Position numbers and translations under genes: made by a program
Source of the DNA: Phycisphaerales bacterium
GTDB taxonomy: Bacteria > Planctomycetota > Phycisphaerae > Phycisphaerales > UBA1924
Reading direction: 5' to 3'
Length of the DNA: 64,000 bases
Assembly (NCBI GenBank): GCA_028284805.1
Contig: JANQQZ010000151.1
Coordinates: forward strand, 1 to 64,000
The notes under the pieces: generated by a model
Database searches by the model: none
Seen by the model: the letters and a program-made list of their open reading frames with translations, nothing else
What the model was told of the DNA's origin: nothing
In this document: piece after piece, positions 7,200 through 51,721 of the stretch
Numbering within the stretch: the stretch's first letter is position 1
Layout of the letters: every line of letters starts with the position of its first letter

Positions 7200-7457
7200 C
7201 CGGCTCGGGGCTTGGCACGGGCGTCCGGCGGGCCGATACTTCATACGTGACGCTGCGACCTGTGCACTTCGACGAGCGAATTCGCTGGCCCCGCTGAGGG
7301 CCGGCCCGGGCATCGCTGCACGCTGTGAGCGCCGAACGCCGACCTCTCCGGGGCTGAACCCGCGGATCGATCCGATCCGGGCGGGCGGCACATGTTTCCT
7401 ACGATCGCAGACGACCGACGACCCGCCGCGGTATCCGCGGCGAGGCGGAGCAGAGCC

Positions 7458-10355
7458 ATGAGCGGTGCAGCGGATCCAAAGCTCGGCGAGAAGCCGGCGG
7501 ACAAGAACCGGTTCAAGAAGACCCTGAACCTGCCCCGGACGGCGTTCCCGATGAAGGCCAACCTGGTGCAGAACGAGCCATCGAGCCACAAGCGATGGAA
7601 GTCGCTGGGTCTCTACGCCAAGACGCGTGAGCAAGGGCCGAGCAAGCCCCGGGGGCGGTTCGTGTTCCACGACGGGCCGCCCTACGCGAACGGTTCGATC
7701 CACCTCGGGCATGTGATGAACAAGTGCCTGAAGGACTTCGTGGTGCGCTCGAAAGGCGTCTTGGGATACGACGTGCCGTTCGTGCCGGGCTGGGACTGCC
7801 ACGGTCTTCCCATCGAGCACAAGGTGATGACGGACCTGGTCGAGTCCGGCAAGGTCAAGAAGCTGATGGACCTGGACGAGGGCACGCGCCGGGTGGCGAT
7901 CCGTCGCGAGTGCCAGAAGCACGCCCAGAAGTTCCACAAGCTGCACACCGGACAGATGGAGCGCCTGCTGACCCTGGCGGACTACGAGGATCCGTACCTG
8001 ACGATGCAGCCCCGGTACGAGACCGCGGTGATCGAGGTGCTGGCGGGGCTGTGCGAGCAGGGGCTCGTGTACCGGGCGCTCAAGCCCGTGCACTGGTCGG
8101 TGGACAACGAGACGGCGCTGGCCGACGCGGAGCTCGAGTACCAGGACCGCGAGGACCTCTCGGTGTACGTTGACTTCGAGTGCGCCGACGCGGCGGACGT
8201 CTACGCGCGGTTCGGGCTGGATGACGACAGCCGCCCCGAGGTCGCGCCGAGCCTGATGATCTGGACGACGACGCCCTGGACGCTCCCTGCGAACGTCGCG
8301 GTCGCGGTGAACGATGGCTTCGAGTACGCGCTCGTGCGCGTGGACGGGAACGTGACGCTGATGGCGTCGGCGCTCGTCGAGAAGGTCACGGGGCTCGCCG
8401 AAGCCCAGGACGTCGAGGTGCTTGCGACGACGACGGGCGATCGGCTCGTGGGCGTTCGGTACCGGAGCCCGCTTCGTGACGACGTGCCCGCGATGAACGG
8501 CCCCACGGACAAGGTGTGGACCGTGCTTGTGGCTGACTACGTGACCCTCGAGGACGGCACGGGGCTGGTGCACACCGCCACCGGGCACGGAACCGAGGAC
8601 TACCAGACCGGCCAGCGAGAGGGGATCGAGCCGTACTGCCCGGTGCGAGCGGATGGGACGTACGACGACACCGTGCCCGAGTGGCTTCGCGGCGTGGACA
8701 TCTGGACGGCGAACGAAGAGGTCGCCAAGCGGCTCCAGGAGAGCGGGCACCTGTTCTACTCGCACCGATTCATGCACAGCTACCCGCACGACTGGCGGAG
8801 CAAGGGGCCCGTGATCTTCCGGTGCACGGAGCAGTGGTTCGTGGGCGTGGACCGCCCCACCGCTCGCGACGGGAAGAGCCTGCGCGAGCTCGCGCTGTCG
8901 ACGACCGAGAGCGGCGTGGAGTTCGTGCCTGGCTGGGGCAAGAACCGGATGCGGGGCATGCTCGAGAGCCGCCCGGACTGGTGCATCAGCCGTCAGCGGT
9001 CGTGGGGACTGCCGATCCCGAGCTTCACGCTGCCAGACGGCACGAGCTTCATGACACCAGCCAGCGTGCGGGCGGTCACGGGCGTGATCGCGCAGAAGGG
9101 CTCGGACGCGTGGTACACGCTGGAACCCGCGGAACTGCTCGCGGCGTACGACCCGGCGAGCGATCCGGATGCGCCGGACAGTCTTGACATCGGCTCGCTC
9201 GCGAAGGGGCACGACATCCTGGACGTCTGGTTCGAGTCGGGCTCGTCGTGGAACGCGGTGATGCGCGAGCGTTCCGAGGGCGCTGACTTCCCGGTGGACC
9301 TGTACCTCGAGGGCTCGGACCAGCACCGAGGGTGGTTCCAGCTGTCGCTGCTGCCATCGCTCGGCGTGATGGGCGAGCCACCCTTCAAGGAGGTGCTGAC
9401 GCACGGGTTCATGGTCAACAAGGAGGGGCGCAAGCTGAGCAAGAGCTCGGGGGACTCCGTCGATGATCTGTTCGCCCGGTACGGGGCGGACGTGATCCGC
9501 TGGTGGGTCGCGAGCCTCGCCTACGAGAACGACGTGAAGGTGGACCGCCAGTTCTTCGACGAGGCGGGCGAGAGCTACCGCAAGGTGCGCAACACGCTGC
9601 GGTTCATGCTGAGCAACCTGGACGATTTCGACGCGAACGCGTTCGATGCGGGCGGGTTCGCGCCGGCCTCGATCGAGGCGTGGGTGCTGGGTGAGCTGGA
9701 TGCGCTGACGGAGAAGGTGTCGGCGGCGTACGAGTCCTACCAGTTCAAGGTCGCGCACGCGGCGCTGTACGACTTCTGCAACGACACGCTGAGCTCGGTC
9801 TATCTCGCGGCGGTCAAGGACCGGCTCTACTGCGACCGGGTCGATTCGCCCAGGCGTCGGGCGACGCAGGCGGCGCTGCACCGGCTGACGGACCAACTCT
9901 GCCGGCTGCTGGCCCCGCTGCTGCCGCACACCGCCGACGAGGCGTGGCGGGCGCTGCGAAAGGCGGAGCCCAAGAACGCTGAAGTGTGCGTGCACCTGGA
10001 GACGCTGCTGCCTTCGGGCGGGGTCTCACCCGACGCGGGCTGGGCCTCGGTTCTGGCAACGCGCGACGCCGGTCTGCTCGCGATTGAGAAGGCCAAGTCG
10101 AAGACGGATCTCGACAACCCGCTGGATATGGGCGTGGTGCTGCCCGGAGAGATCGGCGCGTTCGACACGGTCGATCTGGCGGACCTGCTGGGCGTGAGCG
10201 AGGTGACCTTCGACGCGTCGGCGGGCGAGCCCGCTGTGCTCGATCTCCGCGATCGCCCTCGGTGCGAGCGGAGTTGGAAGCGCGACGGCACGGTGCGTGA
10301 GCGATCGGACGGCGCGATGCTGTCGGATCGCGACGCGGAGGCGATCGGCGTCTGA
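7458..10355 (+). CDS. ileS: Isoleucyl-tRNA synthetase
   Basis: Charges tRNA-Ile. The start ATG 7458 follows GAGGCGGAG, giving 965 residues, near the usual 930-1050. Class I signatures are clear: PYANGSIHLGH (HIGH box), WDCHGLPIE, the editing-domain regions TTTPWTLPAN and GTGLVHTATGHGTEDY, DVWFESGSSW, and KLSKSSGD (KMSKS loop). The anticodon-binding helical domain follows. The extreme C-terminus has the outline of the bacterial zinc ribbon (RCERSW...MLSDRDAEAI), but only the first of the four usual cysteines remains. The enzyme is expected to be essential. Confidence 0.96.
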   Translation: MSGAADPKLGEKPADKNRFKKTLNLPRTAFPMKANLVQNEPSSHKRWKSLGLYAKTREQGPSKPRGRFVFHDGPPYANGSIHLGHVMNKCLKDFVVRSKGVLGYDVPFVPGWDCHGLPIEHKVMTDLVESGKVKKLMDLDEGTRRVAIRRECQKHAQKFHKLHTGQMERLLTLADYEDPYLTMQPRYETAVIEVLAGLCEQGLVYRALKPVHWSVDNETALADAELEYQDREDLSVYVDFECADAADVYARFGLDDDSRPEVAPSLMIWTTTPWTLPANVAVAVNDGFEYALVRVDGNVTLMASALVEKVTGLAEAQDVEVLATTTGDRLVGVRYRSPLRDDVPAMNGPTDKVWTVLVADYVTLEDGTGLVHTATGHGTEDYQTGQREGIEPYCPVRADGTYDDTVPEWLRGVDIWTANEEVAKRLQESGHLFYSHRFMHSYPHDWRSKGPVIFRCTEQWFVGVDRPTARDGKSLRELALSTTESGVEFVPGWGKNRMRGMLESRPDWCISRQRSWGLPIPSFTLPDGTSFMTPASVRAVTGVIAQKGSDAWYTLEPAELLAAYDPASDPDAPDSLDIGSLAKGHDILDVWFESGSSWNAVMRERSEGADFPVDLYLEGSDQHRGWFQLSLLPSLGVMGEPPFKEVLTHGFMVNKEGRKLSKSSGDSVDDLFARYGADVIRWWVASLAYENDVKVDRQFFDEAGESYRKVRNTLRFMLSNLDDFDANAFDAGGFAPASIEAWVLGELDALTEKVSAAYESYQFKVAHAALYDFCNDTLSSVYLAAVKDRLYCDRVDSPRRRATQAALHRLTDQLCRLLAPLLPHTADEAWRALRKAEPKNAEVCVHLETLLPSGGVSPDAGWASVLATRDAGLLAIEKAKSKTDLDNPLDMGVVLPGEIGAFDTVDLADLLGVSEVTFDASAGEPAVLDLRDRPRCERSWKRDGTVRERSDGAMLSDRDAEAIGV

Positions 10356-10481
10356 GTTTTCGGACGTCTGAGCCGCGTTCCGAACGCTGTGCGCCGTTTG
10401 TGCGGACAGGGGTTTCCACCCGGTTGACGGATCGGCTGGCTCGACCGTTGATTCGTGGCAACACCACCCGATGCTGTTGCC

Positions 10482-11906
10482 ATGAGCCAACACGCCTCCC
10501 CCGCCGCGACGCGCATCCTGCTGATCGACGACGACCCGATCGTGGTCGACGCCCTCGGAGCGGTGCTCCAGGCACAGGGGTTCGCGGTGACGACGGCGCT
10601 CGGGGGCACCGAGGGCTGGAGCAGGCTCGAAGCCGAGGCGGACGCGTTCGACGCGGTCGTATCGGACGTGGTCATGCCCGAGCTGGACGGGATGGAACTG
10701 CTGCGCCGGGTGCGCGAAGCCAAGCTCTCGGTCGCGATGGTCATGCTCACGGGCTATGGGTCGATCGAGTCGGCGGTCGACGCGCTCCGGCTCGGGGCGG
10801 CGGACTATCTGACGAAGCCCGTGGTCGAGAGCGAGCTGCGGCTGGCGATCGAGCGGGCGGTGGCGCAGCACGCGTTGCTGCGCGAGAACGCCTCGCTGCG
10901 TGAGCAGCTCGACGGGCGGTACGGGCTCGACGCGATCGTCGGACGCGACGCACGGATGCAGCGCGTGTACGAGCTGGTCGAGGCGGTCGCGCCGAGCAAG
11001 ACGACGGTGCTGATGTCGGGCGAGAGCGGCACGGGCAAGAGCCTGGTAGCGAGGGCGATCCACCAGCGGAGCGACCGGGCGGGCGGGGCGTTCGTCGAGC
11101 TCGCGTGCGGCTCGATCCCCGAGACCCTGCTCGAGAGCGAGCTGTTCGGGCACACCAAGGGAGCGTTCACAGGGGCGCACACCGACAAGATCGGCAAGTT
11201 CGAGGCCGCGGACGGGGGGACGCTGTTTCTCGACGAGATCAACTCGGCGAGCCCCGGGATGCAGCTGAAGCTGCTTCGGGCGTTGCAGGAGCGGCGGTTC
11301 GAGCCCGTGGGATCGAACGAGACGCGCGAGGTGGACGTGCGCGTGGTGCTGGCGAGCAACGAGCCTCTGGAGCAGTTGGTCGCCGAGAAGCGCTTCAGGC
11401 AAGACCTGTACTACCGGATCAACGTGGTGATGATCGAGCTCCCGTCTCTGCGCGACCGTCTGAGCGACGTGCCCCTGCTGGCGGAGCATTTCCTGCAGCA
11501 ATTCGGCGGTGAGCTGGGCAAGGAGCTGATCGGGTTCACGCCCGAGGCAGAGGCGGCGCTGCGCGGGTACGGGTACCCGGGCAACGTGCGCGAGCTTCAG
11601 AACATCATCGAGCGAGCGGCGGTGCTCTCGCGCAGCGCCACGATCGGGGTGGAGGCACTGCCGCGGCACGTGGTCGACACCGACGGGGCGGGACCGGTCG
11701 CACGGGTCTCCGAGGAAGCCGCGTGGGAGCCCATGCCGCTGGCCGAGGCGTTGCGCGAGCCGGAGCGGCGGATCCTCGTGCGGGCGCTCGAGGCCAACGG
11801 GTGGAACCGCCAGGCAACAGCCGACCAGCTCGAGATCAACCGGACCACGCTCTACAAAAAGATGAAGCAGCTGGGGATCGAGAACGAAGAGCGACGCGCC
11901 AGCTAG
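10482..11906 (+). CDS. Sigma-54-dependent response regulator (NtrC family)
   Basis: A 474-residue three-domain regulator. The receiver (about 10-125) has LLIDDDP, phospho-acceptor SDVVMPELDGM, MLTGYGS and LTKPV. The AAA+ domain has Walker A GESGTGKS, the sigma-54 contact loop KGAFTGA, Walker B GTLFLDEI, and arginine-finger region FRQDLYYRINV. The C-terminal Fis-type helix-turn-helix reads NRQATADQLEINRTTLYKKMK. ATG 10482 is chosen because the receiver starts about 10 residues later; GTG 10455 is possible. No histidine kinase adjoins it, so it is an orphan here. Its stop shares a CTAG with that of the convergent methyltransferase gene. Confidence 0.92.
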   Translation: MSQHASPAATRILLIDDDPIVVDALGAVLQAQGFAVTTALGGTEGWSRLEAEADAFDAVVSDVVMPELDGMELLRRVREAKLSVAMVMLTGYGSIESAVDALRLGAADYLTKPVVESELRLAIERAVAQHALLRENASLREQLDGRYGLDAIVGRDARMQRVYELVEAVAPSKTTVLMSGESGTGKSLVARAIHQRSDRAGGAFVELACGSIPETLLESELFGHTKGAFTGAHTDKIGKFEAADGGTLFLDEINSASPGMQLKLLRALQERRFEPVGSNETREVDVRVVLASNEPLEQLVAEKRFRQDLYYRINVVMIELPSLRDRLSDVPLLAEHFLQQFGGELGKELIGFTPEAEAALRGYGYPGNVRELQNIIERAAVLSRSATIGVEALPRHVVDTDGAGPVARVSEEAAWEPMPLAEALREPERRILVRALEANGWNRQATADQLEINRTTLYKKMKQLGIENEERRAS

Positions 11907-28059: not shown

Positions 28060-28812
28060 ATGTTCCGAATTTGCATTGCGATCACTCTCGCGATTGGTCT
28101 CGGCGGCTGTGTTTCCCAAGCGGAGTACGAAGCAGCAAAGAAACAACGAAACGATGCCCGGGCGGAACTCGCAGAACTTGAGAAGGCCATCCCAGAACTG
28201 GAGCGGAATGCTGCAGATCTTGCTACCGTCCGCGCACAACTCACATCGGATCGAGAGAAGCTCAACGACTTCATTCAGATGGCATCGATAGAGTTGACAA
28301 AGTCCCACAGCTTTGTACTACGCTTTTTCGGCGAGGTTCTGAATGTAGCAAGTGCGTACGCCGTGGCTGTCGACGATGCACTCGCTGAAGCTAATACAAC
28401 GAAGGCACAAATTGAGGCAACACTTGAGCGCGCGAGGGAATCTGTCCAAACATCGAAGGACCAGATCCAGCAGGCAAATGACGCGATTGCTCGCATCGAA
28501 GCACAGCGCACCTCATTGTTCAACTCACTCCTGAACATCGCAGCACCCATCGCATCAACGGTCCCTGGCGGGGGAGCTGTCATCGGGCTGCTGGGCACTA
28601 TCGCGGGCGCTGGTGGGCTTGGAATGTTTGGCATCAAGGCGAGAGAATCCAACCACCGCAAGAAAATCATCCAAGCGACGGAGGAGTACAACCTGATCAG
28701 TGATGACCCATCGCTTGAACCGCAGAAAGAGAAGGCACGGCTCAGTCTCGGTGGACCCGCCTACGCCGAACTTAAGAAGATCACACGCGGGATCGGCAAG
28801 AAAAAGGCGTAG
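28060..28812 (+). CDS. Coiled-coil lipoprotein with glycine-rich hydrophobic segment
   Basis: A 250-residue protein with AAGGAG before ATG 28060 and a signal ending LGGC, a good lipobox. Residues about 20-160 are coiled coil with two blocks (RAELAELEKAIPELER and KAQIEATLERARESVQTSKDQI). A Gly-rich hydrophobic stretch (AAPIASTVPGGGAVIGLLGTIAG) follows near 165-190, then a basic C-terminus ending GIGKKKA. Base composition is visibly AT-richer than the flanking genes, and the upstream gap is AT-rich too, so recent acquisition is possible. No family is recognised. Confidence 0.6.
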   Translation: MFRICIAITLAIGLGGCVSQAEYEAAKKQRNDARAELAELEKAIPELERNAADLATVRAQLTSDREKLNDFIQMASIELTKSHSFVLRFFGEVLNVASAYAVAVDDALAEANTTKAQIEATLERARESVQTSKDQIQQANDAIARIEAQRTSLFNSLLNIAAPIASTVPGGGAVIGLLGTIAGAGGLGMFGIKARESNHRKKIIQATEEYNLISDDPSLEPQKEKARLSLGGPAYAELKKITRGIGKKKA

Positions 28813-36863: not shown

Positions 36864-36950
36864 GGAGAGGTGGCAGAGCGGTTGAATGCGCCGGATTCGA
36901 AATCCGGTATGGCCTTCGGGTCATCGGGGGTTCGAATCCCCCCCTCTCCG
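36864..36950 (+). tRNA. tRNA-Ser (CGA), integration site of the island
   Basis: Class II tRNA of 87 bases. Acceptor GGAGAGG pairs with CCTCTCC, discriminator G. The anticodon stem CCGGA/TCCGG frames loop TTCGAAA with anticodon CGA. A long variable arm and T-arm GGGTTCGAATCCC follow. Its last 14 bases are part of a 17-bp sequence repeated at 51905-51921, so the gene served as the attachment site and was left intact. Confidence 0.95.
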
Positions 36951-36953
36951 CTT
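36937..36953 (+). repeat. attL-like repeat (tRNA-Ser 3' end)
   Basis: TCCCCCCCTCTCCGCTT, covering the last 14 bases of tRNA-Ser(CGA) plus three more. An identical copy lies at 51905-51921. This is the expected footprint of tyrosine-recombinase integration at a tRNA gene. Confidence 0.8.
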
Positions 36954-37222: not shown

Positions 37223-38722
37223 ATGGATGAGAAAGCCGCTGCACAGTCCAAGTCGATCCTGACAATGTCCGCCGACGAGGCCCGGCGCTTTCTGCTGAAG
37301 CCGGTGAGCTACTGCAGCATCGATTTCCCGGACTACATCGACTTCACCCAGGTGCTCACTGAGACCGCGACGCTACTAGATACTGCGAGTCTATCGAGCA
37401 TGCAGGATCACACCCCTCGCGATGAGTCTGGTGTCAACTACACCCTCTTGGCGAACAAAGACGGCCGGCACGCGTGGCGACCATTTCAGATCATTCATCC
37501 TGCCCTCTACGTGTCGCTCGTCCAGACGCTGACAGCCGAAGACGCCTGGAAAGCGATTACAGATCGTTTCGCAACGTTCTCCAGCCTGCCACGGATCGAC
37601 TGCCTGAGTATCCCGGTTGAATCACAAACCAAGCGGAGCGACCAGGCAGAGCAGGTGACGCAATGGTGGCAAGGGATCGAGCAAAGATCTATCGAGTTGT
37701 CGATCGAGTACCAGTACGTGCTGCACGCCGACATCTCGGACTGCTACGGATCGATCTACACGCACTCGATCCCGTGGGCGCTGCACACGCGGCCCGTTGC
37801 GAAGGCGAAACGCAAACGCGGCGAGCTGTTGGGCAATGAGATCGACGGCACGATTCAGGACATGCGTGAAGGACAAACGAACGGTATCCCCCAAGGTTCA
37901 GTCGTCATGGACTTCATCGCCGAGATGGTCCTCGGCTACGCCGACGAGCTTCTCGCCGAACGGCTGGACGCTGCAGGAGTCACTGAGTACTACATCCTTC
38001 GATACCGCGACGACTACCGGGTGTTCGTCAATAACCCGGAGCTCGGCGAGTTGATCCTGCGCACGCTGACCGAGGTGCTGATCGATCTTGGCCTGAAGCT
38101 CAATGGCTCCAAGACATCCCAGGCCCAGCCTGTTGTGCGAGCGTCGCTAAAGCCAGACAAGTGGGCATGGCTGCTCCACAAGCAACGCGATTTCAACCTG
38201 CAGAAGCAGCTGCTGGGGATCCATGCGCACGGGACCGAGTTCCCAAATGCTGGCAGCCTAATGATCGCCATGTCCGCGTTCCACAAGCGGCTGATGCGTG
38301 CGAAGAAGGTACGAGCACCACTGCCCATGATCGGTGTCGCGCTCGACATCGCGATCCACAGCCCGAGGGTGTTCCCCGCGTGCGCCGCCGTGATCAGTCG
38401 TCTGCTTCAGGAACTCGGCTCGAATCAAGAACGGCGCGATGTTCTCCAGAAAGTTCTCACTCGAATCAGGACCCTCCCGAATGTTGGGACCTTGGAGGTT
38501 TGGCTGCAACGTATCAGTCATCCGATCCAAGCCCAACTGGGCTACGAGGAACAGATCTGTGAGATCGTTCGCAGCCCGGGCGACAGCCTCTGGAACAATG
38601 ACTGGATATCGTCGAAGCCGCTCCTCAAGGCTCTGGGCCAAGACATCGTCGATCGGAAGGCGTTGGGCATCCTGAGCGTGGTCGTCCAACCAGACGAAAT
38701 CGATCTATTTTCCTACGAGTAA
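37223..38722 (+). CDS. Reverse transcriptase, unknown-group / DRT-Abi-like
   Basis: A 499-residue RT. Motif A is LHADISDCYGSIYTHSIPWAL (catalytic Asp170), motif B NGIPQGSVVMDFIAEMVLGYAD, motif C ILRYRDDYRVF (YRDD at 261-264), then LGLKLNGSKT. The SIYTHSIPWAL block is characteristic of the Abi/DRT and unknown-group RTs, not group II introns or retrons. The 200-residue C-terminal extension is helical and has no recognised domain. It is the first gene of the island, and a strong hairpin lies upstream. A defence role is inferred from family; the exact class is not assigned. Confidence 0.82.
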   Translation: MDEKAAAQSKSILTMSADEARRFLLKPVSYCSIDFPDYIDFTQVLTETATLLDTASLSSMQDHTPRDESGVNYTLLANKDGRHAWRPFQIIHPALYVSLVQTLTAEDAWKAITDRFATFSSLPRIDCLSIPVESQTKRSDQAEQVTQWWQGIEQRSIELSIEYQYVLHADISDCYGSIYTHSIPWALHTRPVAKAKRKRGELLGNEIDGTIQDMREGQTNGIPQGSVVMDFIAEMVLGYADELLAERLDAAGVTEYYILRYRDDYRVFVNNPELGELILRTLTEVLIDLGLKLNGSKTSQAQPVVRASLKPDKWAWLLHKQRDFNLQKQLLGIHAHGTEFPNAGSLMIAMSAFHKRLMRAKKVRAPLPMIGVALDIAIHSPRVFPACAAVISRLLQELGSNQERRDVLQKVLTRIRTLPNVGTLEVWLQRISHPIQAQLGYEEQICEIVRSPGDSLWNNDWISSKPLLKALGQDIVDRKALGILSVVVQPDEIDLFSYE

Positions 38723-39935: not shown

Positions 39936-40333
39936 GCGCCCGGCCCTTGCCGCGGCAGCTGCGTCTGCTTCCCCGGCTTGATCTCCTGGTTGCGCGATGG
40001 ACATGGGCTGTCCTGGAGCGCGTGCAGCAGCGAGGGGATCGCCTGCCTCGACAGTCGTGGACCGGCGCACCGCGCTCCCGAGTCGAGGGGGCGTCCCGCA
40101 CGATTGGGCTCGCGATGGTCAGCCCGGAGATGGTCGCCGAGGCGGCGCTCACGGCGGGCTGGCCGCCGGTGATGACGCTGGAGGAAGCGGCCGAAGCTAT
40201 GCGAATCAGCCCGCAGACGCTGCGCCGCTATGTCAGCGAGGGCAAGTTCAAGAAATGCGTGAAGCGCGGCTGGCCGACGCTGTTCTGGCGTGACTCGCTG
40301 ATCAGCGAGTTCATGAAAGGGCCGTGCCGGTGA
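39932..40333 (+). CDS. Excisionase-like helix-turn-helix protein
   Basis: A 133-residue protein from GTG 39932. The C-terminal 60 residues form a MerR/excisionase-type winged helix: MTLEEAAEAMRISPQTLRRYVSEGKFKKCVKRGWPTLFWRDSLISEFM. The N-terminal part is basic and Pro/Arg-rich. It overlaps the gene before (GTGA) and the integrase after (10 bases), the usual place for an Xis. A role in excision or in controlling the integrase is inferred. ATG starts further in (116, 119 codons downstream) would remove the basic N-terminus and cannot be excluded. Confidence 0.65.
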   Translation: MSARPLPRQLRLLPRLDLLVARWTWAVLERVQQRGDRLPRQSWTGAPRSRVEGASRTIGLAMVSPEMVAEAALTAGWPPVMTLEEAAEAMRISPQTLRRYVSEGKFKKCVKRGWPTLFWRDSLISEFMKGPCR

Positions 40334-41484
40334 AGCTCGTCGATCGCCAACCGGTCGAGGGGACGGAACGCCCGACGATCTACATCGGGCACCGTCAGTA
40401 CCGTGACCAGAGGTCGGGCAAGCGGAAGACCTCGCGTCGCTGGAGCGCCGAGTGGTTCCTCAACGGTAAGCCAGACGGTCAATCACTCGACACCAACAAC
40501 AAAGTCGCAGCGATCCGAGCAGCTCACGAGGTGCACCGCAGGATTCGACAGGGGGAGCCGACCGCGGCGCCGCGAGAGGTCCGGATCAAGGAGCTGGTCG
40601 ACGGCTACATGACGCTTCAGCGCGGGCAGCCGCGATCGCCGAAGACGCTGGAGAAGTACCAGAAGGTGCTCGATGACTTCGCCGCCCACAGCGAGGCGTG
40701 CGGCGTCGTTTATGGGTCCAGGCTCACCGAGGAGGAGTTCTGGTCCTTCGAGATGGAGCGGAAGCTCTCCGACAAAACCAGGTACGATCGACGCGTAATC
40801 ATTTTGCAGCTCGCAAAGTGGGCAACCGAACGCGCGGAGCTCCTGCCCAAGAACCCTCTTCGGCACGTGAAGATGAACAAGCCCGAGTGGGCGCCGCAGC
40901 CGTGCTTCATCCCGGAGCAGGTCGAGACCATGCTCGAACACGTCGAGCCTGGCATGCGGGAGATGATCATGGTGCTGGCCTATACCGGGATCCGATTCGG
41001 CGAGCTGCGAGAGCTCTGTTGGGACGACATCGACCTCAAGCAGGGCACCCACGGCTTCGTGACAATCCGGCGCGGCGGCGCGGAGGGGCGGACCAAGGGC
41101 AAGCGGAGCCGGCGGATCCCGCTGCACCCAGAACTGGCCGCGATGCTCCGGACTCGTCCGCGCACCGGTGAACGCGTGTTCGCCGCCCGCGAACTCGGCG
41201 GCCGCGGCGACGGTCTGATCGTCGACACCGTCTTCCTGCGGAAGCTCAAGCGGCTGTGCGCGGCGTGCAAGTTCACCAAGCCTGACCAGTACAAAATCCA
41301 CACCTTCAGGCACTTCTTCGCGAGCATGCTCGCACGCGAAAACGTGAGCTACTAGTACGCTCTGGAGTTCATGGGACACCGCAGCAGCGACATCCTTGAC
41401 CTCTACTACAAGATGTACGACAAGGACGCCGAGCGAGCGATCCTGGCGATCCAACTCCGCAAGGGCCGCAAGCCCGCGGCCTAA
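40324..41484 (+). pseudogene. Tyrosine recombinase/integrase interrupted by an amber codon
   Basis: The frame from GTG 40324 encodes a phage-type integrase: N-terminal arm-type region, SAM-like core-binding domain (RIKELVDGYMTLQRG), and catalytic domain with LAYTGIRFGELREL (first Arg), KGKRSRRIPL, HTFRHFFASMLA (HxxR). TAG at 41353-41355 stops it at residue 343. The same frame then continues for 42 codons with YALEFMGHRSSDILDLYYKMY, which supplies the second His and the catalytic Tyr. Without readthrough the protein cannot cut DNA. A single-base change would restore a 386-residue integrase. Sequencing error is possible. Confidence 0.8.
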
Positions 41485-43143: not shown

Positions 43144-43374
43144 ATGGCTCGTGGAAGCAGGAAGGGCGAACCACACTTGCCGCAACAAGGCGGCGGTCTC
43201 GATGACGGGGGCGTTCCCCGCCGTCGCGGCCGGCGTCCGCGTCAGGTTCCGGTTGCGGTCTCGTATAGACCGCAGATGCCGGAGGAGGAACAGCAATGCA
43301 AAGACGCCCTTCGACTTCTACTCGCCTCCATGGTCCGCAGTCGGTTAGGCGGACATGAGGAGGATGGGACATGA
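43144..43374 (+). CDS. 76-residue basic protein coupled to the serine recombinase
   Basis: ATG 43144 follows AGGGAGGAG by 7 bases. The N-terminus is Gly/Arg-rich and disordered (PRRRGRRPRQVPVAVSYRP), and the C-terminus is helical (EEEQQCKDALRLLLASMVRSRLGG). Its stop overlaps the ATG of the large serine recombinase (ATGA), so the two are translationally coupled. Position and size suit an accessory factor such as a recombination directionality factor, though that is inference only. It resembles no family I know. Confidence 0.55.
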   Translation: MARGSRKGEPHLPQQGGGLDDGGVPRRRGRRPRQVPVAVSYRPQMPEEEQQCKDALRLLLASMVRSRLGGHEEDGT

Positions 43375-45308
43375 AAAGGAAGTCTCGACTCAACGGAACG
43401 CGGGGAGTCCCGCTGCTGCGATGCTCGACGATGGAGCAGGCAGATACCTCGATCGATGATCAGCTCAACTCGATCAAGGTCTTCTCGGAGGAATACGGCA
43501 TGGAGCTCGGCGAGCCGGTCAGGCTCGTCGGCAAGTCGGGCAGCGTCAAGAGCAATCTTGAGGCCGGCATCGACGAGATCATCGCTCGCAAGAAGAACGG
43601 CGAGCGGATCGACTACGTCGTCTTCTACGACCAAAGCCGGTTTGCCAGGTCGGGCCCGATGCATTTCGGGCTCCTCGCCGAGCGGCTCGAAGCGGCCGAC
43701 ATCGACCTCGCTGAAACAGACGGGTTCCTTGAGGACCCGGCGATGCTCCCCATCGTCCGGACCGTCAAGGCCGTCATGAGCCAACAGCAGGCTCAGAGCA
43801 TCGCGGATGCGTCGGCCCGCGGTTCGCAGAGCTCGCTCCGCAGCGGGCGCCGCGTTCATTCGACGCGGCCGGCGTACGGCATCGACAAGCTCCGCATGAG
43901 CCCATCGGGCGAGCCGGAGTACATCATCAGGCGACTGGCCGACGGGACGCGGTTGTTCCTCGATCCGCAGACCAAGGAGATCAAGCAGACGTATCCCGAT
44001 GGCGTTCGGCTCCCGAAGAAGTCCCCGCTGGGCAAAGATACGTTGGTCCCTGGTGACCCCGCGCTCCGCGAGATCGTCGTCCGGATCTTCCGGATGCGAC
44101 ATGAAGATGGATGGGGCGGGAGCCGCATCGCCCGCGCGCTCAACGATGAGGGTATCCCATCGCCGAAGGGCGGCCGATGGTCAACAGCGGTTATCCGCGA
44201 CCTGCTTCGCGACGAGGTCTATACCGGCGTCGGGTACGCCAACCGCTATAGCTCTGCGATCTATGTCAATCAGGCGCGCGGTCGCCCGCAACCGCTTGGG
44301 AAACAAAAGGGCAAGGTCGTCCGCGGGACCCGGCCGTCGAACGACTGGTTCATCGTCCAGTATCCGGCGCTCTCTGATTACCTCCCGCCTGAACTCAAGC
44401 GCGCTGCGAAGAAGGAGCAGAAGGACTACCGCGATCGGATCAAGACCGGCAAGATCCAGGAGCCCAAGTCCGACAATGGACGACAGCATCATCTGCTGTC
44501 CGGAATCATGACCGAGCAGACGACCGGCAAGCCCATGATCGCGAAGGCAAGCGGAAAGCCGTCGCGCGTCTACTACTGGCTCAGCGATGCGAGGGACTCC
44601 GCGCCCGCCGACTCGCCGCTCCGTCGATGGCTGCCATCGGCGCCGCTGCATCGGGCCGCGTTGGAGGAAATCGAATCCCTGGTCTGCTCGCTTCCTGATT
44701 TACGAGATCGAATCATCGCGGAGATCGCTGAGCAGGATCAAGAGCGGCTCGGCGGCGCAGGCGAGAGCAAAGCCCTCCTCATCGAGCTTGAGAAGCTTCG
44801 CAAGCGGTACCGGTCGCAGCTCTCGCGGCTCGGCGGGCCGGACGATGCCGCGGTCAACGACGCGATCGACGAGACGAGCAGCCGCATCCGCGTCATCGAG
44901 GATCGGCTCGCGAGCATGAACGCCGGGCCCGCGCTGACCGACGCCGAGGTCACAAAGGTCGCCGACGGCATCATTCGCGATCTCTCGGAGATGCTTTCGG
45001 AGTTCGCCAACAAGGGCGAGCCGGCGCTCCGTGAACTCGCGGCGACGCTCATCTCGTCTGCAGTCGCAGATCTCGAGAAGGAAGAGGTTGCGTTCGAGTT
45101 CGCGATCCCCGCTGACCTGATCGACCGTCGAGTTCTAAGCCTGCCTGAGCCATGCGGACCCACAACATGCAGGCAGGCGTACAAATGGCGGCCCATCGTC
45201 CTTGATGTCGTAACCGTTGACGTCGCAACGCCTTGCCGAGGTGAATGCTGGGAGCCCTACATCCCCAAGGGCTGCGATGACTGCGGATGCCAACAGCAAG
45301 CCGCTTGA
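43371..45308 (+). CDS. Large serine recombinase
   Basis: A 645-residue protein. The N-terminal resolvase domain has LLRCSTMEQADTSIDDQLNS (catalytic Ser19), YVVFYDQSRFARSG and AVMSQQQAQSIADASARG. The recombinase domain follows (WGGSRIARALNDEGIPSPKGGRWSTAVIRDLLRDEVYTG), then a coiled coil (KALLIELEKLRKRYRSQL). The usual zinc-ribbon cysteines after the LxG motif are absent: HHLLSGIMTEQTTG. Instead the last 60 residues hold CGPTTC, CRGEC and CDDCGC. It probably mobilised part of the island. GAGGAGG precedes the ATG. Confidence 0.88.
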   Translation: MKRKSRLNGTRGVPLLRCSTMEQADTSIDDQLNSIKVFSEEYGMELGEPVRLVGKSGSVKSNLEAGIDEIIARKKNGERIDYVVFYDQSRFARSGPMHFGLLAERLEAADIDLAETDGFLEDPAMLPIVRTVKAVMSQQQAQSIADASARGSQSSLRSGRRVHSTRPAYGIDKLRMSPSGEPEYIIRRLADGTRLFLDPQTKEIKQTYPDGVRLPKKSPLGKDTLVPGDPALREIVVRIFRMRHEDGWGGSRIARALNDEGIPSPKGGRWSTAVIRDLLRDEVYTGVGYANRYSSAIYVNQARGRPQPLGKQKGKVVRGTRPSNDWFIVQYPALSDYLPPELKRAAKKEQKDYRDRIKTGKIQEPKSDNGRQHHLLSGIMTEQTTGKPMIAKASGKPSRVYYWLSDARDSAPADSPLRRWLPSAPLHRAALEEIESLVCSLPDLRDRIIAEIAEQDQERLGGAGESKALLIELEKLRKRYRSQLSRLGGPDDAAVNDAIDETSSRIRVIEDRLASMNAGPALTDAEVTKVADGIIRDLSEMLSEFANKGEPALRELAATLISSAVADLEKEEVAFEFAIPADLIDRRVLSLPEPCGPTTCRQAYKWRPIVLDVVTVDVATPCRGECWEPYIPKGCDDCGCQQQAA

Positions 45309-46716: not shown

Positions 46717-46744
46717 TTGACGTACACGTCGGTACATGTACAAT
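46717..46744 (+). promoter_or_regulatory. Promoter with overlapping palindrome, upstream of GHKL module
   Basis: TTGACG (46717-46722) and TACAAT (46739-46744) are spaced by 16 bases and resemble a sigma-70 promoter. The palindrome GTACATGTAC (46732-46741) lies over the -10 box, and a second GTAC lies at 46723-46724 region, suggesting an operator. The expected start of transcription is near 46751, the A of an ATG, so translation from that codon might be leaderless. Confidence 0.5.
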
Positions 46745-46750
46745 ACGTCT

Positions 46751-47377
46751 ATGAACGGCTCGTTTCTGAACTCACTGCAGGCCTTCCAGGGTGTCGTCGA
46801 TGGGGCGATTGCCGACGCGGTCGCAACCTCGGATTACGACCAGGTCCAAATTTTGGCAGAGCTCGCCGCAACCTTGCGGGCGACACCCAAGCGACTGACC
46901 GCAGCTGCATCCGCAGACGTGCCGCGCAGTCAGCCAGTCAGCCCGAAGAACGACCGCGGTGAGAATCCGACCAGATCGCCTTCGCAGTACCCGTACTACC
47001 TGCGGGACCGCGATGACGTACTCAAAGTCGGATGGGCAAGCAAGTCGAACTCTACCTATGAGCACCGCGCGCCCTTTGCAGACGTACTCCTTTTCGCCAA
47101 TGCCTTGAAGGAAGTGTCGAAGTCAGGCGCGCTGTTCTCGACCAAAGAACTCCGCACATGTCTCGCGCTTGCATGGAGGCGTCAAGAGCGCGATCCGCTA
47201 CCCGACTCCCAGTTCTACGTGTGCCTTGGATGGCTCAAGTCGATCGGTGCCGTCGTGCAACATGGCCGGCGCGGATACTCCGTAACTGATAGTCGAATGC
47301 TCGGCGATGGCCTTGAGACGGCATTTGCTGTACTGCCCGTTTCGCATCCCAACAGCCCAACTGATGGAGACCAATGA
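46751..47377 (+). CDS. Winged-helix-like protein, first gene of GHKL module
   Basis: A 208-residue protein from ATG 46751 (ATG 46736 lies within the promoter). Residues 1-70 are helical, followed by a Ser/Pro-rich linker. Residues 95-200 look like a winged helix: FADVLLFANALKEVSKSGALFSTKELRTCLALAW, FYVCLGWLKSIGAVVQHGRRGYSVTDSRML. It overlaps the ATPase gene by ATGA and so should be made with it. It could recognise DNA for the system. No family is recognised. Confidence 0.55.
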   Translation: MNGSFLNSLQAFQGVVDGAIADAVATSDYDQVQILAELAATLRATPKRLTAAASADVPRSQPVSPKNDRGENPTRSPSQYPYYLRDRDDVLKVGWASKSNSTYEHRAPFADVLLFANALKEVSKSGALFSTKELRTCLALAWRRQERDPLPDSQFYVCLGWLKSIGAVVQHGRRGYSVTDSRMLGDGLETAFAVLPVSHPNSPTDGDQ

Positions 47378-49782
47378 TGCCACGGCGCTTTAGTCACCGT
47401 TCCGATCTCGAAATCAACATCTCGCGCACACTCGAGCAGTTGCTCCGTAGATTTCAGGCAGTCGAGCATGGCTTGCCGGAGCTCGTCAAGAACTCCAAAG
47501 ACCAGTATGCGCGGCTGGACATTGTCGGTGCCGAGACTCGTCCGATTGTCGTGCTTGCTAACATGGCCAATCGGACGATTGGTGTTCTGGACTTCGCTGG
47601 TGCGGCACTCGATGACTTTATGAAGTGGAGAGTTTGGTCTGATCCCTCGCTGGATGAGGACTCCGGCTCTCGTCAACACGATATCGAAGCCGGCAATGGC
47701 AACGGCGGTAAGGCGTTCATGACTTTTGGCTCATTGAGCCAGAGTATGTTCGAATCGCTGCGAGACGGCCGCTACACGGCCATGGGCTTTGACACGTCGC
47801 AGAACTCGGAAGATCGCTTCCGTCCGGACTTCGCGCTGGATGACCAAGGGTCACTACTCAAAGATCGTGCCGGGCTGGATCCCGAGGCGCTGCTGGTGAG
47901 TTCCCTGTCTGATTTTGGGATTGGGATCGAGCAGCTGCCTGACAACGCGCTCTCGGTATGGACCGAGCGCAAGGCCTTCACAATGGTGAAGATCGAGGGC
48001 GTTAAGGAGTGGGGATCTCGAAGGGCTGTAGAGCATGTTCGGAGGAGCGTGTACTCGATTCCAAGCATCCTCGCCGAACACCCCCAGGCCTCGCTTTCTA
48101 TCGAGTCGTGCAATGTGTGGATAGTTATCGATGGCACGCTGGTTGGGGATAGGCCAGTCAAGGCCGCATCTCTTGAGCCACGTGAAGGATTCGAGAGTAT
48201 CGAGCCGATTCCGATTCCCACAGAGCTGGAAGACCCAGAAACAGGCGAATCGGTCTCAACTGGACCAGGTGACGAAGAGAGCCGGTTCCTTCAGCTTCAC
48301 ACCTCCGCGGTACATCTGCGGATGTCCTCGAACTCGGCGCTTAACGTCATACGCGTTTGGAATGGCCGGAACATTGCTGCCAACTGGAGTGTTGCAGATC
48401 TGCATCCAAGCAGCGAGTCAGCGTACATCTACGGTCGGATAGCCGCCCCCGCTCTTCAGGATCCGGAGCATCTTGCGGGCGCTGACCGAGCGAGCTTGGC
48501 CAGCACGCCATTGGTTCGAGCCCTCCGCCACTGGACCTCTCAGCAGGTACAGGAGCTCGTTGAGAGGCTGCGCGAGGAAACATCACGCGATCACGCCGAA
48601 GAGGATCGGCAGAGCGCAAACTCAACGCTCGAAGACCTGCGTGAAGCGATGCGTGAGTTCTTGGAGGACGAGCAGGAAGGGCGCCGAGGAGCTGAGCAAG
48701 GTGGAGAAGGCGAAGGCGGCCCCGGCGATGACTCGCCCCCGCCGCCTGAGTTTGGCGAACGAGTTGACATTCTTGTGCTTGAGAATGATGCTGCGTCACT
48801 CGCTCTACCTGTGGGAACCTCGTCGCCACTCAAGGTTCGTGCTCTTGAAAACCGAGAAGACGGCAATCCTCTGCCCGTTCGGGTGTCTTGGGCGGACCTA
48901 GACGTCAAGACTGAGAACGGCGAGGCAGTCACACTCGATGAGTCGGGTGTTTGCAAGGCCATTGCGGCGGGCACATCTCCGATCTCTGTCATCCACAAAG
49001 AAACGGGCGTCGAGTCGAACGCCCTGCTTATCGAATCGATCGCATGCAGTAACGCCATAATCCGGAATCGACCTGAACGAGTTCTTCGCCAGGGTGAGCG
49101 ACTACCGCTGCAAGTCCTGTACGAAACCGATAGTGGCAACCGTGCCGACCTATTGGTAGAGGCTTCTGTAGACGAGGAGAACATGGGTCGCGTGACCCGG
49201 GTTGGGACGTACACGGCACCAGGACGGCAAGGCTCCGCCACGATTCGTGTGCGTTACGGACCTCGCCCTGAAGACACCCGAACACTCAACGTAACGATTG
49301 GTGAGGAGCGAGTGCCGCCGCCCGAACGAAAAGGACGCGGCGGATCAGCAGGTGGAGATATCCCAACAATTTTGCTCTGCGGAGAACCAGTACCCGGCAG
49401 CCAGTACGAAGATCTCCCGATCGATGAGCGCACATTCCATCCTTCGACCGATGAGCCGACGATTATCGACTACGATCCGCAGTTCGAGAACGTGATCTTC
49501 ATCAACCCTGATAGCCATGAAGCAACCCAAGTGCGTGCCCGAAGAGGCGGACGCCGCGGCGCTGCAGGAATTGGCACAAAGACGTTCGGCGAGTTTCTCG
49601 CAACCAAGTGCTTTGAGATTCTGAAGCGCCTCTGGGTCTTTCAGCAGGCTGACGAAGCGCCATTGACCCCAAACGACTATCGTCTTCGATTCGCCGAGGC
49701 AGAACAGGTATGCGCGCGGTTCGTACCCGTCGCTTACGAGATTGGTCGTCGGATTGCGGAACGCCACGAAGAAGGGAACTGA
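47374..49782 (+). CDS. GHKL/MORC-like ATPase with Ig-like domains
   Basis: An 802-residue protein. The Bergerat ATP site is visible: GLPELVKNSKDQY (Glu36, Asn40), VLDFAGA (Asp73, degenerate DxGxG) and EAGNGNGGKAFM (lid, Lys113). Residues about 390-450 form a charged coiled coil (QELVERLREETSRDHAEEDR). Residues about 465-660 hold two Ig-like (Big-type) strands sets, ending TYTAPGRQGSATIRVRYG. A C-terminal domain has ENVIFINPDSHEATQVRA. MORC-like GHKL ATPases are known from restriction-modification loci. It probably works with the winged-helix neighbours and the methyltransferase. ATG 47374 or 47377 may start it. Confidence 0.7.
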   Translation: MMPRRFSHRSDLEINISRTLEQLLRRFQAVEHGLPELVKNSKDQYARLDIVGAETRPIVVLANMANRTIGVLDFAGAALDDFMKWRVWSDPSLDEDSGSRQHDIEAGNGNGGKAFMTFGSLSQSMFESLRDGRYTAMGFDTSQNSEDRFRPDFALDDQGSLLKDRAGLDPEALLVSSLSDFGIGIEQLPDNALSVWTERKAFTMVKIEGVKEWGSRRAVEHVRRSVYSIPSILAEHPQASLSIESCNVWIVIDGTLVGDRPVKAASLEPREGFESIEPIPIPTELEDPETGESVSTGPGDEESRFLQLHTSAVHLRMSSNSALNVIRVWNGRNIAANWSVADLHPSSESAYIYGRIAAPALQDPEHLAGADRASLASTPLVRALRHWTSQQVQELVERLREETSRDHAEEDRQSANSTLEDLREAMREFLEDEQEGRRGAEQGGEGEGGPGDDSPPPPEFGERVDILVLENDAASLALPVGTSSPLKVRALENREDGNPLPVRVSWADLDVKTENGEAVTLDESGVCKAIAAGTSPISVIHKETGVESNALLIESIACSNAIIRNRPERVLRQGERLPLQVLYETDSGNRADLLVEASVDEENMGRVTRVGTYTAPGRQGSATIRVRYGPRPEDTRTLNVTIGEERVPPPERKGRGGSAGGDIPTILLCGEPVPGSQYEDLPIDERTFHPSTDEPTIIDYDPQFENVIFINPDSHEATQVRARRGGRRGAAGIGTKTFGEFLATKCFEILKRLWVFQQADEAPLTPNDYRLRFAEAEQVCARFVPVAYEIGRRIAERHEEGN

Positions 49783-49784
49783 AG

Positions 49785-50471
49785 TTGGCAGCACGTGGTA
49801 AAGGACTCACCGCAGCGCAGGTAATCCTGTTGGCTGCCGACGACCTCCAGAAGTCTGGATCTGCTGAGTTTTCAGAGTGGCAGCTGACTATCGCCGCTTG
49901 GAAACGCGACGGAAACAGGTTCGGGCTCCGTGGGTTCGAGGAAGATCATCCCGACCATAAGCGGGTCATGATGGAGATTATGGGGCAGACAAAGAAAGAT
50001 AATCCGATTCGCAAACAGTTCATGAGGAAGACAAGACCGAACCATTACACCATGACCGACCTCGGTCGATCCGAAGCAGAACTACTGCGCAGGTCAGCAA
50101 GCGATGAAGAGGTATCGCGTTCGGCTGCGCCAGTCTACGACACGGTGGAGCCACTCCTGGCGCACTCTGGATTCCGCCAGTGGCGTGACGATCCCGATCA
50201 GCCCAAGAGTTGGCTTTCTGCATCCTCGTTTCTTGGGCTTCGAGCCCAGTCGGCGGCGGAACTCAATGACCGAATCAGAGCCATCCTGCGGGCAATCGAG
50301 CAGGCTGAGTCATGGTGCGAGGATCATGGCCTCAGCCAACTCACTCGAGGACCCAGCGGAGGTGGTTCTGGTCCGAAGTCGCTTGACGAAATCCGCCTCC
50401 TACGCGATTTCCTGCAGATGCTCGAGGAGCGATTCTCGAGGCAACTCAACGCTATCAGGACTCGAGGCTAG
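49785..50471 (+). CDS. Winged-helix-like protein, third gene of GHKL module
   Basis: A 228-residue protein. TTG 49785 is 2 bases after the ATPase stop, with GAAGGGAACTGAAG upstream; no ATG is better placed (ATG 49968 would lose most of the first domain). Residues 8-100 look like a winged helix (LTAAQVILLAADDLQKSGSAEFSEWQLTIAAW; KTRPNHYTMTDLGRSEAELL). The C-terminal half is helical (AAELNDRIRAILRAIEQAESWCEDHGL; EIRLLRDFLQMLEERFSRQL). It ends 17 bases inside the convergent methyltransferase gene. Nuclease motifs are not visible. Confidence 0.55.
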   Translation: MAARGKGLTAAQVILLAADDLQKSGSAEFSEWQLTIAAWKRDGNRFGLRGFEEDHPDHKRVMMEIMGQTKKDNPIRKQFMRKTRPNHYTMTDLGRSEAELLRRSASDEEVSRSAAPVYDTVEPLLAHSGFRQWRDDPDQPKSWLSASSFLGLRAQSAAELNDRIRAILRAIEQAESWCEDHGLSQLTRGPSGGGSGPKSLDEIRLLRDFLQMLEERFSRQLNAIRTRG

Positions 50472-51459
50472 GAGTTGGCGAAAAGCGAAAACGTGATGCC
50501 TCAGCATAGTCGGAGCTCTTCTCAATCGCGATCCAACGGCGCCCGGCGTTCTCCGCGACCCAGCCGGTTGTGTTGCTCCCGCCAAATGGGTCCACAACGA
50601 GATCCCCCTGTTCTGTAAGAAGATCGATGAAGAACTGAACGAGCTTGTGCTGCATGCGAGCTGGATGAACATCAATCCCATGCTCCCGACAGTACTTTTG
50701 ATACGGGTCACTGTTTCCTGTGTTTGGGATCGCGAGCACCTCCTCAGCCATCTGGGTTGCGAAGGCGTCGAGCAACTCGTCAGCGCTCGGGAACAGAACG
50801 TTCGGTGGAATTGAGCCACCATTGTTCGATAGAAATGAAGTCTCGCCGATCGCATGCTCCGATGGGCGTGTTCCTGCGTTGTAGGTCCCTCGGTCGAGCA
50901 GCTTCTTCATGCTGTCGCTGTATGGCGTCAGCACGTTCCGGTTGTTCGCCTTCGGCTTCGGATTCCTTGACAACCACCAGACCCGTGTAAACGCGTCCTT
51001 GACGCGGCTACGTTCAACATTGACCCATTGGGCGGGCGTTGGAAGTCGTGCGGGGTTGTAGCAGATGAACTCCTGGCACAGGTGGAGTTCGCCCGCCTCC
51101 TGGAAAGCGAGCAAAGCCTTAATCGCGAGCGTAGACATCGTGGGTTGACCGGGTTCCCACGCGTTGCCCAACTCAATGACAATCGAGCCGTCTTCGCTCA
51201 GAGTGTCGGCAAACAGAGAACCAAGTGATCCGATCCAGTCAACGTATTCTGAACCTTCGAGATTTCCGTAGCGCTTCTTTCGGTTGAGCACGAAAGGCGG
51301 AGATGTCAGCAGTAGATTGACTTTTCCTCGTTGCCGCGTGAAGGCGCTGCTCGCGAGTACGTCTTCACATGCACCAACAAAAAGGCGCCCGCGTTTGGTC
51401 TTGTAGAGCGGAAGCGATCTCGACGTGGCTCTGCGCAAACCTGTTTTGGTAGAAGTCAT
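50455..51459 (-). CDS. Beta-class DNA amino-methyltransferase
   Basis: A 334-residue protein from ATG 51459, preceded by GAGGAGCAGGA. Catalytic motif IV LLTSPPFVLNR (residues 50-60) comes before the SAM motif I at the C-terminus (DPFGGSNTTGWVAENAGRRWIAIE, about 290-313), the beta-class order. The TSPPF form favours N4-cytosine, though N6-adenine is possible. The middle (TPAQWVNVERSRVKDAFTRVWWLSRN) probably reads the target sequence. It is translationally coupled to the RHH gene (ATGA). Its convergent neighbours form a candidate restriction side. Confidence 0.88.
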   Translation of the reverse strand: MTSTKTGLRRATSRSLPLYKTKRGRLFVGACEDVLASSAFTRQRGKVNLLLTSPPFVLNRKKRYGNLEGSEYVDWIGSLGSLFADTLSEDGSIVIELGNAWEPGQPTMSTLAIKALLAFQEAGELHLCQEFICYNPARLPTPAQWVNVERSRVKDAFTRVWWLSRNPKPKANNRNVLTPYSDSMKKLLDRGTYNAGTRPSEHAIGETSFLSNNGGSIPPNVLFPSADELLDAFATQMAEEVLAIPNTGNSDPYQKYCREHGIDVHPARMQHKLVQFFIDLLTEQGDLVVDPFGGSNTTGWVAENAGRRWIAIEKSSDYAEASRFRFSPTPSLES

Positions 51460-51665
51460 TCCTGCTCCTCTCGCGAGCTTGAAAAGCTCAAGCGGAGCTG
51501 GCCGGACTCGTGCTCCTCGATGAACCTCGCCAAGGCCATTCGAACAACGAGCGAAAGGGGCACACCGTTCCTCTCTGCCAGTGCTTCCAGCACTTCGCGC
51601 TGTCCTCTCGCCAGAGTGACGGTGAGTCGATCCGAGGATGCAGGGGGCTGACTTCGCTTTGCCAT
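51456..51665 (-). CDS. Ribbon-helix-helix protein upstream of methyltransferase
   Basis: A 69-residue protein from ATG 51665. It has the RHH pattern: SDRLTVTLARGQREVLEALAERNGVPLSLVVRMALARFIEEHE, with a beta strand DRLTVTL then two helices. The C-terminal tail is charged (SSSREEQE). Its stop overlaps the methyltransferase ATG. Repeats in front of the gene could be its operator, so it may act as a controller that balances methyltransferase and ATPase expression. Confidence 0.7.
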   Translation of the reverse strand: MAKRSQPPASSDRLTVTLARGQREVLEALAERNGVPLSLVVRMALARFIEEHESGQLRLSFSSSREEQE

Positions 51666-51682
51666 ATCCAACAGTATGCACG

Positions 51683-51721
51683 GTGATGCGGCGTGATGCA
51701 AGTCGATGCATCGTGCATCAC
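51683..51721. promoter_or_regulatory. GTGATGC repeat operator upstream of RHH-methyltransferase genes
   Basis: GTGATGC occurs at 51683-51689 and 51693-51699, exactly 10 bases apart, and inverted as GCATCAC at 51715-51721. The palindrome GATGCATC (51705-51712) lies between. A partial further copy, CCCCATCAC, is near 51731. One-helical-turn spacing is typical of cooperative RHH repressor binding, so autoregulation is likely. Confidence 0.55.

Follow-up and report, generated by a model that had tools for sequence, protein, structure and literature searches.

Background

In animals and plants, transposons and viruses are kept silent by MORC ATPases, which clamp DNA and compact it. A bacterial origin of MORC in restriction systems was proposed from gene context alone by Iyer, Abhiman and Aravind in 2008 (PMC2292703), who described mobile, patchily distributed prokaryotic restriction-modification (R-M) operons that combine GHKL+S5-type MORC or paraMORC ATPases with DNA methylases, a minority of them without helicases, and who proposed that the ATPases loop DNA and that these systems cut it. 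The present study concerns a locus comparable to these operons in a 64-kb stretch of DNA from a Phycisphaerales bacterium (contig JANQQZ010000151.1, positions 1 to 64,000; henceforth the window, meaning this whole stretch), in which a GHKL ATPase, a winged-helix partner here termed protein C and a DNA methyltransferase (MTase) are accompanied by a further gene, A, and a ribbon-helix-helix (RHH) protein. The paraMORC1-5 families show features such as a C-terminal RecB-like or TIR domain, an ExxxH in the S5 domain and an HxH. In comparison with the MORC/paraMORC operons, the module described here has no helicase, lacks a recognisable nuclease at 10 of its 12 MTase-bearing loci, and includes an ATPase with two immunoglobulin (Ig)-like domains, no MORC motif and a dedicated winged helix-turn-helix (wHTH) partner.

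Several other systems share single traits with the module. The type II PvuII R-M system of Proteus vulgaris (plasmid pPvu1) has an MTase of the same family (43% identity) and a small adjoining regulator; however, no homologue of R.PvuII or of its HTH controller (C-protein) is present here, the RHH protein taking the place of the latter and the ATPase module that of the endonuclease. Eukaryotic MORC2, MORC3 and SMCHD1, in which a GHKL+S5 ATPase as predicted here is likewise followed by a coiled coil, are the best structural neighbours apart from Ig-like matches, whereas our ATPase is prokaryotic, MTase-linked, fused to Big_2 domains and devoid of the MORC signature. BREX resembles the module in proposed logic, namely a block against which an MTase protects, with no restriction endonuclease evidently dedicated to it; no PglZ, BrxC or PglX homologue occurs here and the ATPase is unrelated. 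VcSduA, a Shedu protein with an N-terminal GHKL domain, also places a GHKL ATPase in phage defence, but includes a nuclease domain within the same polypeptide (PMC12137116). Finally, the PbeABCD/CxC-DndE systems can recruit cytosine methylases in replacement of another mark, and one such MTase, in Aurantiacibacter, is related to that of the window; their core, in contrast, consists of an ABC ATPase, an SF2 helicase/HKD nuclease and DndE, with no GHKL protein (PMC10853773).

A recurrent GHKL ATPase, protein C and methyltransferase module

The five genes lie at about 46751-51665, with gene A, the GHKL ATPase and protein C on the forward strand converging on the RHH-MTase pair on the reverse strand (Table 1). 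The initial annotation of this DNA had presented them as a candidate undescribed defence or restriction module; the five open reading frames (ORFs), their operon order, the ATGA overlap, the 2-base gap and the convergence are all borne out on the sequence, its outer limits of 46717 and 51721 being a few tens of bases too wide. We placed the start of gene A at 46751 because the homologue in a second Phycisphaerales genome (locus L007) begins at the matching codon. Likewise, the 418-aa ORF of the MTase was judged too long because an ATG at 51459 (residue 85) overlaps the RHH stop codon as ATGA; L007 has a similar start-stop layout of the two genes.

A non-exhaustive scan of 84,980 species genomes with short patterns recovered six relatives; one further relative was found on plasmids and five on viral contigs (one of these cut inside the ATPase), and profile searches of sampled genomes added one distant ATPase-C pair, in which genomes G1005 and G1101 present an identical contig that was counted once. 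The family is rare, being found in one of 294 genomes in one sample (the window's own) and in one of 385 in another (the query's own); most extra profile matches in the Planctomycetota and Armatimonadota samples were to Ig-like domains only. Thirteen loci with readable flanks, the window and 12 others on contigs elsewhere (labelled L0xx), could be compared. The latter comprise an Ensifer conjugative plasmid (L002), tRNA-adjacent integrase islands in Methylobacterium (L003) and Sphingomonadales (L004), an Armatimonadetes metagenome-assembled genome (MAG; L005), a 'Pacearchaeota' bin (L006, contig VGKS01000020.1), the Phycisphaerales L007, a Rhodobacteraceae locus split by a contig break (L008 and L032), two closely related prophages (L012, L013), and three distant members, namely a planctomycete (L034, genome G1005, pair at 7106-11272), a viral, phage-like contig (L055, in the 25-29% identity group) and a further viral contig (L056).

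The ATPase gene is followed by that for protein C in all 13 loci. A DNA MTase adjoins protein C in 10 of them, convergently in nine, whereas in L055 the two share an operon and have an ATGA-type overlap. L002 and L056 have a PvuII-like MTase within a few kilobases, where its neighbours are a PD-(D/E)XK-like protein and an AAA ATPase. The initial annotation had named homologues usually found without the MTase as grounds for refuting it; such a refutation fails, an MTase being present in 12 of the 13 loci. As the genomes tested have only 2-18 matches each to the MTase's Pfam family, this linkage is not attributable to chance, and the recurrence of the core gene order at 12 other loci places the five-gene locus far beyond chance. 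The conserved core consists of the GHKL ATPase, protein C and the MTase. The five-gene set as first annotated is not the unit: a separate RHH gene beside the MTase occurs only in the window and L007, and the type of gene A varies. Gene A, whose C-terminal half is winged-helix-like by sequence pattern only and which gave no family match in library searches, has its one homologue in L007 (33% identical when aligned); elsewhere its slot is taken by a helical protein of 75-111 aa or, in L006, by a Zn-ribbon-like protein of 325 aa.

Domain architecture of the ATPase and protein C

The ATPase displays an N-box (GLPELVKNSKDQY) conforming to the E-x-x-x-N-x-x-D pattern of the GHKL superfamily, a D73-F-A-G segment and a lid of the form GNGNGGKAF. 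Across 13 ATPases with identities down to 25%, E36, N40, D43, D73, G76, G107, G109, N110, G111 and K113 are invariant, so that the N-box residues (E36, N40, D43) and the G-x-G-N-G-G-K lid with its lysine are intact in every member. The AlphaFold model (pLDDT 79, pTM 0.50, leaving domain placement uncertain) predicts a GHKL+S5 ATPase fold of the MORC/SMCHD1/Hsp90 type, after which come a coiled coil, a pair of Ig-like domains and a tail of helices. For the first part Foldseek recovered DNA-bound MORC2 (9cdj, E 6.7e-8), SMCHD1 (6mw7), MORC3 and Hsp90/TRAP1, and for the second part Big_2 domains; the alignments to MORC2, SMCHD1, Hsp90 and TRAP1 span about 400-480 columns, with E-values from 1e-5 to 7e-8. 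The MORC signature GhXhhpXXRhl is absent from the S5 domain of all 13 ATPases. Alone or as a family, the ATPase reaches the cut-off of no family in Pfam, NCBIfam, PHROG or PADLOC and gives only weak Ig-like matches, and Pfam HATPase_c_3 yields no match; in the distant homologue of L034, Big_2 does exceed the Pfam cut-off (27.2 against 22.8 bits).

Protein C is modelled (pLDDT 85) as an N-terminal winged helix followed by a C-terminal helical bundle, and contains the conserved stretch EFSEW..LT...WKRD.NRFG.RG.E...PDHKRVMMEIMG. Its structural matches are weak ones to wHTH proteins, with no nuclease among them, and it has no match in the family libraries used, PADLOC included; PADLOC likewise gives no match for any other module protein except the MTase. 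The GHKL ATPase, the second winged-helix protein and the beta-class MTase of the initial annotation are supported. A nuclease was sought in both effector candidates. The C-terminal domain of the ATPase shows no PD-(D/E)XK-like motif and few invariant polar residues, and the suggestion that the product of the gene at 49785 might be an unrecognised nuclease has to be given up, its modelled fold being a winged helix plus an all-helical domain with no conserved nuclease motif. No nuclease fold or motif was recognised in the models of these two proteins.

The methyltransferase and its exchange

The MTase is a PvuII-type, beta-class enzyme with a motif IV of the form TSPPF; it matches 1BOO (E 6.4e-72) and PADLOC MTase_II (PDLC03323, E 2.7e-85) and is 43% identical to M.PvuII. 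It is accordingly predicted to be an N4-cytosine (m4C) methyltransferase. The segment RPSxHxIG...NGGxIPPN is common to the window MTase and M.PvuII, which makes CAGCTG a reasonable guess for the target. No clear depletion of CAGCTG was seen in the host or the elements (17 occurrences in the window against 20.6 expected), a count that is uninformative because methylated hosts need not avoid the site.

MTases of at least three lineages occupy the same slot. A group I clade includes those of the window, L007, L003, L004, L032 and L012/L013; L005 and L055 have members of the PvuII group, and L006 a circularly permuted N6_N4 type. Between the Ensifer and Methylobacterium loci, identity is 86% for the ATPases and 91% for the C proteins, but only 42% for the MTases, which belong to different groups; if the R-M logic holds, these two must protect the same site.

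Outside the module, MTase relatives in the PvuII group adjoin R.PvuII, HNH nucleases or a pair in which a McrB-like AAA ATPase is accompanied by a PD-(D/E)XK-like protein (DLVVVD...VVEVK). This pair is convergent with a PvuII-like MTase at L002:2710-6891, on a Novacetimonas plasmid (L028), where no GHKL gene was detected, and at L056:12510-16304, and with that MTase it constitutes a candidate restriction system of its own. Furthermore, on the Aurantiacibacter atlanticus plasmid NZ_CP015441.1 (L023:5941-12900) an MTase lies directly upstream of a PbeA-like helicase, a small protein and a PbeC-like ATPase; this MTase is 55% identical to that of the window and joins group I on a long branch. Homologues of the R.PvuII, HNH and PbeA proteins of such systems (L023-L026) were not found among the ORFs of the window or the loci.

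Putative regulation by the RHH protein

The RHH protein has a sub-threshold match to RHH_3. In Ensifer and L056, an RHH-like segment is instead fused to the N-terminus of the MTase. Upstream of the window gene is a promoter-like pair, with a -35 TTGCAT (51701-51696), a 17-bp spacer and a -10 CATACT (51678-51673), together with TGATGC/GCATCA repeats at 51684, 51694 and 51714. The L007 module is well diverged from that of the window (33-59% protein identity), and here too three copies of this repeat fall within 100 bp upstream of the RHH gene, an arrangement with a probability of about 1e-5 at each locus in mononucleotide shuffles. By analogy with the C-protein of PvuII, it is likely that the RHH protein autorepresses the RHH-MTase operon. 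It would be a local regulator and is not a part of the core.

Functional considerations

Based on the recurrent genes and the predicted structures, we propose that the locus is probably a mobile R-M-type defence system, in which the MORC-like GHKL ATPase and protein C would together form the effector. The PvuII-type MTase would mark host sites with the predicted m4C, possibly at CAGCTG, and thereby keep the effector off host DNA, its own level being set by the RHH protein repressing its promoter. Protein C, perhaps with gene A and the Ig-like domains, would direct the ATPase, as a dimer, to those sites of incoming DNA that are unmethylated, where ATP binding would close the GHKL clamp and entrap or compact that DNA, so that phage or plasmid DNA would be neither transcribed nor replicated, with no built-in nuclease. 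Such clamping of unmethylated DNA is favoured because MORC2 clamps and compacts DNA with ATP (PMC12216690) and because of the 2008 proposal of DNA looping in R-M systems (PMC2292703). We advance a clamp step that proceeds without cleavage as a tentative suggestion, and restriction in its entirety by a MORC-like clamp and winged-helix partner acting without a nuclease on DNA free of the m4C mark slightly more tentatively still.

The proposal gains support from the recurrent linkage of the ATPase, protein C and an MTase, from the filling of one slot by MTases of several lineages, from DNA-bound MORC2 and SMCHD1 as structural neighbours and from the operator-like repeats of the RHH gene in two loci. 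Further support comes from the same MTase family adjoining R.PvuII, HNH nucleases, PbeABCD and the AAA and PD-(D/E)XK-like pair elsewhere, and from mobile and defence contexts, which include the prophages L012/L013, the phage-like contig L055, the islands L003/L004, the plasmid L002 and the AbiP2 gene of the window. Certain observations weigh against it. The G1 box of the ATPase reads D-F-A-G-A (D-F-M/S-G-M in distant members), a departure from the canonical DxGxG, and whole-chain TM-scores of the ATPase against MORC are low, about 0.2-0.35, because the domain arrangement is uncertain (pTM 0.50). The ATPase-C pair of L034 has no MTase on its contig; the MTase of Ensifer and L056 is either part of, or held in common with, the AAA and nuclease-like pair that also exists without a GHKL gene; and cleavage by an unlinked nuclease is possible.

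The main rival takes up this last point: the GHKL-C complex would act, driven by ATP, as a sensor or a DNA-looping motor and bring in a nuclease in trans, be it an enzyme of the host or, at certain loci, the adjoining McrBC-like AAA and PD-(D/E)XK-like pair, so that the DNA is cut. It is rather unlikely in our estimation, in spite of two separate GHKL branches (L002, L056) lying beside homologous genes of this pair with a PvuII-like MTase, and of DNA cutting having been proposed for the MORC/paraMORC systems, GHKL relatives such as MutL working with separate nucleases (PMC2292703). The ten loci with an MTase next to protein C carry no such pair, the PD-(D/E)XK assignment is itself weak, and a homologue of the Ensifer nuclease-like protein was found in none of seven host genomes, the window's included, in a search that had no positive control and covered incomplete MAGs.

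Less probable by a clear margin is that the mobile element carries the MTase as an orphan or for its own protection, and that A-GHKL-C is a separate, merely co-travelling module with a role such as superinfection exclusion, the maintenance of a plasmid or phage, or control of the nucleoid. The MTase-free pair of L034, the fit of the Ensifer MTase to its neighbouring R-M system and the only partial congruence of the MTase and GHKL trees point this way, but tight linkage recurs across phyla with gene ends overlapping or abutting, and unrelated MTases have been acquired in the same slot. Very unlikely is a modification-dependent system, akin to type IV restriction or an epigenetic silencing switch, in which GHKL-C reads methylated sites and the MTase supplies the trigger or mark. 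Plant MORCs do act on methylated, silent elements (PMC4865129, PMC8277788), and the DNA-binding-type fold of protein C could read m4C; against this, the relatives of the MTase are otherwise protecting enzymes in R-M systems, and a constitutive mark would expose the host chromosome.

Genomic context

The GC content is 0.57-0.59 over 46-53 kb against 0.63-0.70 on either side, and a recombinase, an integrase, AbiP2 and tRNA-Ser lie nearby, in agreement with the earlier description of the module as AT-richer than the host and at the edge of an island. The AbiP2 gene directly follows tRNA-Ser in a GC-poor dip, and the stretch from this tRNA to about 52.8 kb contains AbiP2, the tyrosine integrase, the serine recombinase and the module, which suggests a composite defence island reaching about 52.8 kb, the module thus sharing it with a known abortive-infection gene. 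The serine recombinase is probably the mobility gene of the island; L008 and L009 likewise have recombinase-like genes upstream of their modules.

Table 1. Features of the module and its surroundings in the window
Feature	Position	Strand	Remarks
Gene A	46751-47377	+	about 208 aa; first ATG at 46736 is a possible earlier start
GHKL ATPase	47374-49782	+	802 aa; ATGA overlap with gene A
Coiled-coil helix pair	48508-48696	+	ATPase residues 379-441; AlphaFold model
Two tandem bacterial Ig-like (Big_2) domains	48769-49311	+	ATPase residues about 466-646; model and Foldseek
C-terminal, mostly helical domain	49363-49776	+	ATPase residues 664-801; no recognised nuclease
Protein C	49785-50471	+	228 aa; TTG start; 2-base gap after ATPase
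MTase	50455-51459	-	334 aa; 3' end overlaps protein C by 17 bp
RHH protein	51456-51665	-	69 aa; ATGA overlap with MTase start
Putative RHH operator	51673-51720	-	overlaps sigma-70-like promoter
tRNA-Ser	36864-36951		AbiP2 gene follows directly
AbiP2 reverse transcriptase	37223-38722	+	PADLOC AbiP2 E 7.3e-192; PDB 7r08 E 1.8e-77; not core
Tyrosine integrase	40324-41355		within the island
Large serine recombinase	43371-45308	+	Pfam Recombinase and Resolvase; PHROG integrase E 7e-40; not core

The protein P0007 (45430-46278) was rejected as a member of the module, as it has no homologue at the other loci and only a weak Mrr_N-like score. The sole candidate for an attachment site is a 13-bp direct repeat, GGATCGCACCGCA, at 42499 and 52653, which flanks the recombinase and the module; its occurrence is close to chance and it was not accepted as such a site, being possibly an attachment remnant or fortuitous. 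In a search for empty sites by flanking genes, the adjacent ATPase gene had only distant AAA paralogues in relatives. Elsewhere in the window, a 250-aa protein at 28060-28812 on the forward strand, in a local GC dip of 0.55, weakly matches both Lamassu LmuB and Wadjet JetC and is probably just a coiled coil. At other loci, topoisomerase genes resembling gyrB/gyrA adjoin the module in L006, a caspase-like (Peptidase_C14) gene (L056:3-1421) is found near the distant GHKL module, and the L034 pair has an upstream fragment matching PDC-M33A and an MNT-HEPN pair downstream.

Conclusions

The initial description is upheld in part: the locus fits a mobile, MTase-linked candidate defence or restriction module, and its ATPase and protein C are absent from every library used here. 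The claim that it is undescribed stands as regards library matches and has to be qualified in that MORC-like GHKL ATPases in R-M operons were published in 2008 (PMC2292703); no description of the module beyond that idea was found in the part of the open-access literature that was searched. The family is distinguished by its own domain architecture, the wHTH partner, and the absence of the MORC motif and of a helicase. As the ATPase and protein C match no family apart from weak Ig-like similarities, annotation pipelines built on these libraries would miss the system. With a MORC-like ATPase as the only candidate effector beside a well-understood MTase, this locus of three to five genes would make the idea of a MORC origin in restriction systems directly testable. 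If the proposal is true and no cutting is involved, the module would join the few methylation-protected defences that act without a nuclease, and would represent a prokaryotic equivalent of the silencing of foreign DNA by MORC proteins.

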